A stretch of 37,402 nucleotides of DNA, taken from the NCBI GenBank assembly GCA_026415695.1, contig JAOAGP010000082.1, forward strand, positions 1-37,402, in the 5' to 3' direction. Shown piece by piece: positions 35,536-37,402 of this stretch. The notes under the pieces were generated by a model. The model worked only from the letters and a program-made list of their open reading frames with translations. It searched no databases and was not told the origin of the DNA. This DNA comes from Thermodesulfovibrionales bacterium (GTDB lineage: Bacteria; Nitrospirota; Thermodesulfovibrionia; Thermodesulfovibrionales; Dissulfurispiraceae). Position 1 is the first letter of the stretch. Every line of letters begins with the position of its first letter. Made by a program: the position numbers and the translations under genes.

Positions 35536-35608
35536 GGGCCGTTAGCTCAGCTGGTAGAGCAGCTGACTCTTAATCAGCGGGTCGGAGGTTCGAATCCTCC
35601 ACGGCTCA
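35536..35608 (+). tRNA. tRNA-Lys (anticodon CTT)
   Basis: A full cloverleaf of 73 nt can be drawn: acceptor GGGCCGT with ACGGCTC (one G-U pair at position 2-71), D arm GCTC/GAGC, anticodon stem GCTGA/TCAGC with loop CTCTTAA, and T arm GGAGG/CCTCC with TTCGAAT. The anticodon CTT reads AAG (Lys). CCA is not encoded in full (CC then T). An integrase gene lies 61 bp downstream and points towards it, so the 3' half of this gene is the probable attachment site of an integrated element. Confidence 0.96.
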
Positions 35609-35664
35609 CCTTTAAATTCAATGAGTTATACATCTTTTTTAGCTTATTAAAAACCTTTCTTAGA

Positions 35665-35686
35665 TAGATTTACGCTAGATTTACGC
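35665..35686. repeat. Tandem 11-bp direct repeat at the integrase 3' end
   Basis: TAGATTTACGC occurs twice back to back (35665-35675 and 35676-35686), spanning the integrase stop codon, 57 bp from the tRNA end. Adjacent short direct repeats near an attachment site are typical of arm-type integrase binding sites. Confidence 0.5.
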
Positions 35687-36716
35687 TGAGATTTTGTTTT
35701 TTGCTAAAAATCTCATTCAATACACTAACTGCCTTCTTTGTATGAGATGGTGATAAGTGTGAATAACGAAGAGTCATTGTGATGCTCTTATGTCCAAGTA
35801 ACTTTGAGACTGTTGTTATATCTACCCCAGCCATAACCAGATGTGATGCAAAGGTATGCCTTAAGTCATGAAATCTAAAATCCTTTATTCCTGCCCTCTT
35901 TAATGCTGAATGAAAACTTCTCTTTATTTCTGGATGATATGGCTTTCCTGTTTTTTGATTGTAAAATACATACGGTGAGTCAATCCTTCTAATAAGATTG
36001 TTTAATATCTCTCTCAAATTATCATTTATAGGTATCTCTCTTTTATCACCATTTTTTGTCTTTTCAAGAAGTATAAAACCATGTTTTAAATCAACATTTT
36101 CCCATTTCAGATTCAGTATCTCTCCCTTACGCATACCTGTGTTAAGAGCCATAATTACTATAGGTCTTATGTGTTCATCACATGCATCAACAAGTCTGAT
36201 ACATTCCTCATGAGATAAATATCTCATTCTTTTGTTGTCTTCTTTCAATAGTTTGCATCTTTTCACTTGATTATTAACTTCTTCTGTAATCAATCCCCAG
36301 TGGTATGCCTTGTTGAACATATGTTTAATTGTTGCTAAATGTCTATTTATAGTTGCTGGTTTGTTCTTCTTGAGACTTTGAGATTGATACCTTTCAAGTT
36401 CAAGCGTCGTAACTTCATGTAAGAAATAATTGCCAAAATGAGTATTTATCTGCCTTATAAAACTTGCTTTTTTATACAAAGCCCTATTTCTCCCTTGACA
36501 ATACTCTAAATACTTCACAGATAGTTCTTGAACAGTCATTGGTCTTTCTTTCTTCTCTAACACCTCTGGTTCAAACTTGCCAAGGGCTATCTGTGCCTTT
36601 ATCTTCTTCTCTATCTGTTTAGCCTGCTTGATATCAACCTCTCCTATAGCCTTCTGATACCTCACTCCATCTACTACAAAGGACACATAATACTTATTGC
36701 CTCTCTTAAATGGCAT
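35670..36716 (-). CDS. Tyrosine recombinase/integrase of a tRNA-Lys-targeted element
   Basis: An internal ATG at 36714-36716 (MPFKRGNKYYVSF) is preferred because GGAGGT lies 7-8 nt upstream; the longer reading from 36737 places that site inside the coding region. The 348-residue product has an arm-binding N-terminal domain (KYYVSFVVDGVRYQKAIGE), a SAM-like core-binding domain (MTVQELSVKYLEYCQGRN) and a catalytic domain with Arg in ALNTGMRKGEIL, HDLRHTFASHL, LGHKSITMTLRYSHL (His and nucleophilic Tyr). It should catalyse site-specific insertion and excision at the tRNA-Lys gene. It follows the excisionase-like gene by about 50 bp. Confidence 0.94.
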   Translation of the reverse strand: MPFKRGNKYYVSFVVDGVRYQKAIGEVDIKQAKQIEKKIKAQIALGKFEPEVLEKKERPMTVQELSVKYLEYCQGRNRALYKKASFIRQINTHFGNYFLHEVTTLELERYQSQSLKKNKPATINRHLATIKHMFNKAYHWGLITEEVNNQVKRCKLLKEDNKRMRYLSHEECIRLVDACDEHIRPIVIMALNTGMRKGEILNLKWENVDLKHGFILLEKTKNGDKREIPINDNLREILNNLIRRIDSPYVFYNQKTGKPYHPEIKRSFHSALKRAGIKDFRFHDLRHTFASHLVMAGVDITTVSKLLGHKSITMTLRYSHLSPSHTKKAVSVLNEIFSKKQNLSVNLA

Positions 36717-36770
36717 CGGTCTTACCTCCTTTGCCATCTTGCCACCCCATGCTTGTCAAAGAACCAGTTA

Positions 36771-37043
36771 TCATGATTTTACCACATCAGCAATTGCATC
36801 CTGAATAATGCTATCTATGTCTTTTATTCTTTTTCTACTACTTAATGACTTCTTTGGCTTATCCACTGCCTTTTCTGGATTAATCCAATTGTTGATTTCA
36901 TCCATATCAAACCTCAATGCAGACCTCTTACCACTACCTATTTTCTTATATGGAATCCTTTTGTTATAGACAAGGCTATAGATAGTAGAGATCTTGAGTT
37001 GCAACATCGTTGAAAGGTCTTTAATAGTAAGGTATTGCTTCAT
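36771..37043 (-). CDS. Excisionase-like helix-turn-helix protein
   Basis: The 90-residue protein has a MerR/Xis-type winged helix: YLTIKDLSTMLQLKISTIYSLVYNKRIPYKKIGSGKRSALRFDMDEINNWI, followed by a Lys/Ser-rich tail and a C-terminal helix. This class binds near attachment sites and tips the integrase towards excision, or regulates it. AAGGAG lies about 9 nt before the ATG. It is directly upstream of and in line with the integrase gene. Confidence 0.85.
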   Translation of the reverse strand: MKQYLTIKDLSTMLQLKISTIYSLVYNKRIPYKKIGSGKRSALRFDMDEINNWINPEKAVDKPKKSLSSRKRIKDIDSIIQDAIADVVKS

Positions 37044-37188
37044 ATATTTTTGCTCCTTGGTAATATCTATAATCTCGACAGAGAAGTTAGCTAAAAAGAA
37101 TTGCTATACACAGATAGAGCAACAGATATGCCAATCACAAAAAGATAGTAAACATATTGAAACTATGGAGTATTTGATACACTACAAC

Positions 37189-37217
37189 TTGACAAGAATA
37201 ATATAATGTAATATAAT
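37189..37217 (+). promoter_or_regulatory. Consensus promoter of the rightmost gene
   Basis: TTGACA (37189-37194), a 17-nt spacer and TATAAT (37212-37217): a full match to the sigma70 consensus, the strongest in the window. It drives the gene starting at 37265. Confidence 0.75.
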
Positions 37218-37224
37218 ATATTAC
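37208..37224. promoter_or_regulatory. Operator-like palindrome over the -10
   Basis: GTAATATA-A-TATATTAC is a perfect 17-bp dyad covering the -10 of the consensus promoter. It would suit a repressor that keeps the element's first gene off; the regulator is not identified. Confidence 0.5.
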
Positions 37225-37264
37225 GATATGTAGTAATTTTATTTATTTTATAAAGGAGAATAAA

Positions 37265-37402
37265 ATGCATAAAAATGAAGAAGAAGTATTAAAGACACTA
37301 CAAGACATACTTTCAAAAGAGCCTTCCCATATGATTAAGGATGAAGAAGTTAAAAATAAGATTAATTACTTAGCTGATGATAAGAATTCAGATGTTTTAG
37401 TC
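37265..37402 (+). CDS. Unknown protein of the integrated element, partial
   Basis: An ATG at 37265, preceded by AAAGGAG, opens a frame that runs off the right edge; 46 residues are visible. They are highly charged (start MHKNEEEVLKTLQDILSKE, then IKDEEVKNKINYLADDKN) and probably helical, with no recognisable domain. It is divergent from the excisionase-like gene and has its own strong promoter with a palindrome, so it may be a regulator or early function of the element. Confidence 0.7.
   Translation, partial: MHKNEEEVLKTLQDILSKEPSHMIKDEEVKNKINYLADDKNSDVLV

Follow-up and report, generated by a model that had tools for sequence, protein, structure and literature searches.

The question raised by the right end of this DNA is whether a complete tRNA-Lys(CTT) gene with an integrase gene pointing at it marks the edge of an integrated element and, if it does, where the crossover took place and how the two ends of such elements are marked. 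The window (the whole stretch of 37,402 nucleotides analysed here) is the entire contig C9 of a 2.21-Mb bin with 123 contigs, and the contig end at 37402 lies 1.8 kb past the tRNA gene. With high confidence we read this end as attL, the boundary on the tRNA side, of a small mobile element that integrated by a crossover at the anticodon loop and that has probable arm sites; its anatomy is read directly in the window, and the direct repeats and matched arm pairs are observed in related elements.

A sequence-only reading had described the tRNA-Lys gene, an integrase facing it, an excisionase-like gene and a strongly promoted open reading frame (ORF), and all four were found by ARAGORN, Pfam, PHROG and a promoter match at 12/12 positions (Table 1).

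Table 1. Features at the right end of the window, with positions, strand and basis of assignment.
Feature	Position	Strand	Basis
tRNA-Lys(CTT), complete, integration target	35536-35610	+	ARAGORN
Attachment core (predicted), reaching from the anticodon loop to the 3' end of the tRNA	35566-35610	+	relatives' displaced tRNA pieces and mapped repeats
Twin 11-bp direct repeat AGATTTACGCT, putative integrase arm sites	35666-35687	+	overlaps integrase gene 3' end
Tyrosine integrase, 355 aa	35670-36737	-	PF00589 E 3.4e-40; PHROG 1 integrase E 2.1e-83
HTH_17 protein, 90 aa, likely excisionase (directionality factor)	36771-37043	-	Pfam HTH_17 E 9.2e-9; PHROG 66
Perfect sigma-70 consensus promoter	37189-37217	+	TTGACA-N17-TATAAT, 12/12
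Start of function-unassigned ORF, 46 aa, truncated by contig end	37265-37402	+	ORF call

The integrase reading frame is open along its full length and the HTH gene is intact. Six integrase residues, R203, K228, H290, R293, H316, and Y325, which we take to be the catalytic set, were invariant in an alignment of seven sequences. The HTH_17 protein matches PHROG 66, annotated as "excisionase and transcriptional regulator" (E 2.7e-6), and an HTH_17-like protein was found (E <= 0.01) in 34 of 121 other stretches of at most 1.2 kb upstream of related integrases, two of the 34 representing one place; an excisionase is thus its likely identity. The truncated ORF had no Pfam match and no relatives among the related loci compared. 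Promoter-like sites with at least 9 of 12 matching positions were not in excess in the stretch (9 found versus 9.7 expected), while of 20,000 first-order Markov simulations of it only 96 produced a perfect promoter, both strands counted. The GC content is 0.325 in 35611-37402 versus 0.384 in 1-35535, and 5 of 169 backbone tiles are equally low.

On the other side of the tRNA lies dinB (DNA polymerase IV; 34067-35290) with lexA (33067-33825) as its neighbour. The dinB frame is interrupted by one in-frame stop at 34631-34633 and is otherwise open, which may reflect either a true pseudogene or a sequence error.

The crossover point was approached through related integrases. Integrase-alignment scans gave at least 80 loci from public genomes and 39 from IMG/VR, and together with the window and 13 further loci these made 132 rows, 129 of them distinct. 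In 78 loci the integrase gene ends no more than 150 bp from a tRNA gene, the 3' end of which faces the integrase in 62 and the 5' end in 16; such a tRNA was present at 63 of the 77 distinct public-genome loci listed versus 1 of the 38 IMG/VR loci. In 23 of the 62 loci with the 3' end facing, a direct repeat could be mapped, and this common placement of related integrases at tRNA genes bears out the earlier proposal of an integrated-element edge at tRNA-Lys. The remaining 39 loci gave no repeat, partly for want of sequence: 10 of them (11 with the window) have less than 1 kb of it upstream, but at least 4 have 10 kb.

In 21 of the 23 loci the repeat begins 2-8 nt before the anticodon and reaches the tRNA 3' end or beyond, and the tRNAs involved include Lys, Ala, Val, Thr, Arg, Asn, Pro, Leu, Phe, and Gly. 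On this ground the core in the window should lie at about 35566-35610, longer than first supposed; the suggestion that the repeat starts at the T arm gives way to a start at the anticodon loop, the window equivalent of which is 35566. The two exceptions are L093, with its best repeat at the tRNA 3' end and a second piece beginning at position 30, and L159, with the whole tRNA duplicated. In L159 (3900-11201 in integrase-sense coordinates) the complete tRNA-Glu and 59 bp before it are repeated 7.1 kb away at 100% identity across 139 bp, in contrast to the half-tRNA repeats found in other elements.

The group with the 5' end facing (L086, L087, L090, L091, L133, L158, L171, L178, L179, L188-L192, L195, and L196) contains one convincing repeat among its 16 loci, in L191, from tRNA position -4 to 41. 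Integration into the 5' half is also described for archaeal pTN3-like integrases in the available part of PMC8371274. In a quick tree of 92 integrases, 73 of them with a site, the facing side required 4 changes versus a shuffled mean of 14.6 (lowest 11 in 200 shuffles), and the tRNA isoacceptor 46 changes versus a shuffled mean of 55.5 (lowest 51). Thus, the tRNA side is well conserved, and the tRNA identity switches often, though less than at random. The tree gives no support to inheritance of the tRNA-Lys site along with the integrase, since the two other close integrases at tRNA-Lys(CTT), L077 and L117, group with each other (SH-aLRT 85) and apart from the window.

The tRNA-Lys gene itself was compared among relatives. 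The G2-U71 pair in the acceptor stem of the window's tRNA had been taken as a possible trace of the attachment site; the same pair occurs in 44 of 47 readable tRNA-Lys(CTT) genes (the cut gene of G057 standing outside the 47), and 38 of the 44 have no integrase sequence nearby, while three genes (G035, G038, and G047) carry a G-C pair instead. Judged from this distribution the pair is ancestral and not a trace of attachment.

The same gene order is not universal in relatives, as the first reading had supposed for an integrated element: integrase sequence follows only 4 of 46 tRNA-Lys(CTT) copies from the relatives search, 3 of the 46 having less than 200 bp of downstream room. In the full set of 48 rows, which adds the window and S009_28 (chosen for its integrase) and includes two G037 copies, there are six such rows: the window, G008, G009 (two short pieces), G033, G037, and S009_28. 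At the level of E <= 0.001 an integrase match was present in 59 of 60 genomes including the window's own, most of these matches being distant.

Displaced tRNA-Lys pieces were found in at least 6 of the 59 other genomes (G003, G005, G008, G009, G037, and G056), and they begin at the equivalent of window position 35566 or 35567; in G008 the piece and the tRNA are on separate contigs. One G037 integrase (55-56% identity) has its end 51 bp from tRNA-Lys, with the displaced tRNA half 5.6 kb away at the contig end. A second G037 contig has the same tRNA and the same 55 bp before it and diverges from the element at the tRNA 3' end; it agrees with the displaced half, but only 4-5 bases past the tRNA are comparable, and leftward both contigs differ. 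This contig could represent either an allele without the element or a second locus.

In G003 (L256, contig C38, 10435-13734) 3.2 kb separate tRNA-Lys from its displaced half, and the interval contains Gp49/HTH-like and RHH/PIN toxin-antitoxin-like pairs together with an AAA_14/DUF4143 protein. No integrase of the window's family was found in the first 3 kb.

According to the mechanism proposed here, the integrase would have joined the circle of the element to tRNA-Lys(CTT) by a crossover at the anticodon loop. The tRNA would thereby have received its 3' half anew from the element, while its original 3' half was displaced to the element's far side. In addition to the core, an 11-bp arm sequence specific to the element is probably bound by the integrase; it is present as a twin of AGATTTACGCT on the tRNA side, and a matching arm site is predicted some 115-141 bp inward from the missing far end. 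The HTH_17 protein would act as a directionality factor, turning the reaction towards excision.

The far end and an empty site were also sought. In the bin the 18-mer from the tRNA 3' end (at most 1 mismatch) has a single occurrence, and no displaced tRNA-Lys copy was found there; beyond its own site the anticodon-side 20-mer (at most 3 mismatches) matched one place, in the tRNA cluster of contig C81, with 3 mismatches. A second arm site (at most 3 mismatches) was not found in the bin besides two integrase remnants, and no overlap was found between the right end of the contig and other bin contigs. In IMG/VR one 40-mer near the right end had no exact match, a scan for close relatives of the HTH protein gave none, and the arm-plus-core pattern (0 mismatches) was absent, as it was from all 31 genomes of the family. 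The arm twin (at most 2 mismatches) occurs in one of these 31 genomes, its own. A plasmid DNA search with 35611-37402 gave no match. The part of dinB beside the tRNA had no match in either of the other two genomes of the genus, which leaves no site of the same genus for comparison.

The 22-bp twin (at most 3 mismatches) is found at three places in the bin, namely, the window, C12, and C89, with none in the control; the window's twin is perfect and each of the two remnant copies differs by 2. The C89 remnant, which shows 75-76% identity to the window, consists of tRNA-Thr(CGT), a spacer, the arm twin, and pieces of integrase. On C12 an integrase copy broken by one internal stop has as its neighbour a 42-bp exact copy of the tRNA-Met(CAT) 3' part; the complete tRNA gene is on C70, where a different integrase follows it and runs off the contig end. 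Two copies of the 11-bp unit TTTCTAACGGA are found in the C70 stretch, at 145 and 156 nt past the tRNA, a spacing that departs from the family's usual 40-75 nt, and C12 carries TTCTAACCG and TTCTAACGG at 126 and 115 nt before the displaced tRNA-Met part; the unit is absent elsewhere in either stretch. The simplest reading of these sequences would be two elements in tandem at tRNA-Met; the far end of one and the near end of the next would then both lie on C12.

The C12 and C70 tRNA-Met stretches correspond to L011 (G000:C12, 1-4518) and L265 (G000:C70, 7149-8232). A Gp49/HTH toxin-antitoxin-like pair lies on one side of the displaced tRNA-Met part of C12, and an Eco57I-type methylase gene lies on the other side, behind the broken integrase.

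These remnants bear on the best surviving alternative, namely, that the window holds a decayed relic, in which the integrase and the HTH gene are left, the far end and the rest are lost, and mobility is gone. The clear relic of similar kind at tRNA-Thr in the same genome, the internal stop of the C12 integrase copy, and the failure to find the far end in the bin would agree with such decay. However, the window's integrase frame is fully open with its catalytic positions kept, the HTH gene is intact, the arm twin is perfect versus two differences in each relic copy, and the contig stops short of where the far end would be expected, which makes a relic unlikely.

The second alternative concerns the twin repeats. 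In the window the unit AGATTTACGCT stands twice in tandem, beginning 56 nt after the tRNA and running over the last codons of the integrase gene, and this overlap would suit a simple by-product of integrase C-terminal codons. When the 130 bp beside the tRNA were searched for the best tandem repeat with a period of 9-14, 31 of 62 loci reached at least 10 matching positions versus 2 of 789 integrase-gene control pieces, as did 4 of 16 loci of the 5'-facing group versus 0 of 206 control pieces. The period was 11 in 50 of the 62 loci, and in 47 of these 50 the near twin lies 40-75 nt from the tRNA.

For the far end, 20 elements were used (the 23 mapped ones minus L093, L159, and L163). Within 250 bp before the far core the element's own unit (at most 2 mismatches) occurred 32 times versus 2.9 expected, and in 17 of the 20 elements it lay on the same strand at 118-141 bp from the far core, paired in 13 of the 17, with L129, L151, and L187 outside this pattern. 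With units re-derived, a far site with at most 1 mismatch was obtained for the own unit in 15 of 20 cases, for the units of other elements in 27 of 380, and for pieces of the element's own body in 3 of 2366; the poorest own-unit matches were in L141 (5 mismatches), L187 (4), and L151 (3). The difference between own and foreign mismatch counts indicates that the unit travels with the element and matches between its two ends. Since in those 17 elements a matching unit is found again close to the far end, at a place not covered by the integrase gene, and since near and far units vary together from element to element, a by-product of coding sequence is decidedly improbable. The twin 11-bp repeats are probably arm sites of the integrase, putative as their binding is, in an arrangement of the lambda kind, of which the near-side twin is found in the window and both sides in relatives. 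From the relatives we infer that the window's element has the same kind of far end.

The weakest alternative, a fixed chromosomal recombinase gene standing beside the tRNA by chance and not mobile, could draw on the match of the integrase profile to Xer recombinases of known structure and on the distant integrase matches in most of the 60 genomes, but it is extremely improbable given the rarity of integrase sequence downstream of relatives' tRNA-Lys(CTT) (the 4 of 46 copies above), the arm twin at three tRNA sites within one genome, and PHROG 1 integrase as the best phage family.

The cargo beyond the contig end can be judged from the relatives, whose elements span 1.9-10.4 kb and often carry primase/helicase genes; by this measure the whole element of the window probably spans about 2-10 kb, and elements of this kind often include a replication gene. 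The cargo set comprised 23 elements (without L093 and with L191) and 210 ORFs of at least 75 aa, of which 161 ORFs from 22 elements were scanned, L159 and some small or overlapping ORFs being left out. Among the 161 ORFs the Pfam matches included HTH_17 (18), AAA_25 (6), DnaG zinc ribbon (5), DUF3987 (4), and Terminase_2 (3); small-terminase-like matches appear in a few elements. Each tally covered the 25 most frequent Pfam families, and relaxase or transfer genes are not among these; rarer genes, for example for relaxases or capsids, may lie below that cut. The tRNA-Lys element of G037 encodes an HTH_17 protein and a 661-aa protein with DnaG zinc ribbon, Toprim, and AAA_25 domains, best matched by PHROG 239 (primase/helicase). 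Defence cargo was also considered in relatives and was set aside, the PADLOC matches being largely to general HTH and DnaG-like models.

In L128 (1738-4026), an element at tRNA-Val, a 762-aa protein has RRXRR, HNH, and weak RuvC_III matches. This protein resembles IscB.

Three known systems offer a comparison. Like the tRNA islands in the available part of the Islander description (PMC4383910), the window has a tyrosine integrase (PF00589) and a complete tRNA at one end, and the repeats of its family likewise show a displaced 3' fragment and belong to the anticodon-loop crossover class; anticodon-centred sites account there for 2083 of 3919 islands. The 5'-side arrangement of relatives, 16 of 78 here, corresponds to the rare 5'-fragment class of that source (159 of 3919). 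A displaced fragment is present in relatives, while the data for the window's own element end with the contig 1.8 kb past the tRNA, short of such a fragment.

The PICMI satellites, in the part of PMC10803314 available, are small elements with an integrase, an AlpA-type HTH protein, and a primase. The window shares with them the PF00589 integrase and the HTH_17 protein (PF12728 being one of the two AlpA models used there), and relatives' elements are also small, some with a DUF3987 primase; this combination of integrase, AlpA-type HTH, and primase in relatives is a PICMI-like make-up, although a small integrating plasmid could look alike. The prototype is located at fis and the window's element at tRNA-Lys, so that it differs in target, fis being optional in one PICMI search and mandatory in another in the same part of that source. 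The comparison covers the window's element as far as the integrase, the HTH gene, and the ORF start, and the relatives belong, by their record titles, to other phyla. The attL of the KplE1 prophage with IntS and TorI, in the available part of PMC2951348, likewise combines a tRNA-adjacent integrase, arm-type sites at attL, and a small directionality factor; its arm sites overlap the intS promoter, whereas the window's twin overlaps the 3' end of the tRNA-facing integrase.

As a tentative wider reading, which is possible but less than even in probability, the window may show one end of an element from a widely distributed family, whose members are minimal, resemble phage satellites, enter many different tRNAs at the anticodon loop and each carry their own matched 11-bp arm code at both ends. 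In this family the code would pair halves split by assembly, the tRNA would switch often and the tRNA side rarely, and the hosts would include uncultured Nitrospirae, Deltaproteobacteria, Nitrospinota, Brocadia/Scalindua, and others. No description of such an element family was found in the literature searched, as far as the available parts of it extend.

The element end itself is ordinary and of standard design; the comparison defines it further by placing the crossover at the anticodon loop, by predicting a code for the missing end, and by revealing two sister remnants in the genome. Among its relatives the element ends are uncommonly easy to read. An end-matching code that mostly differs between elements would provide a handle for joining fragments split in metagenomes, as here, and through it the specificity with which a family of tyrosine integrases binds its arms would become open to direct testing. 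Should the elements prove to be phage satellites, several lineages known mostly from metagenomes would be added to that class.
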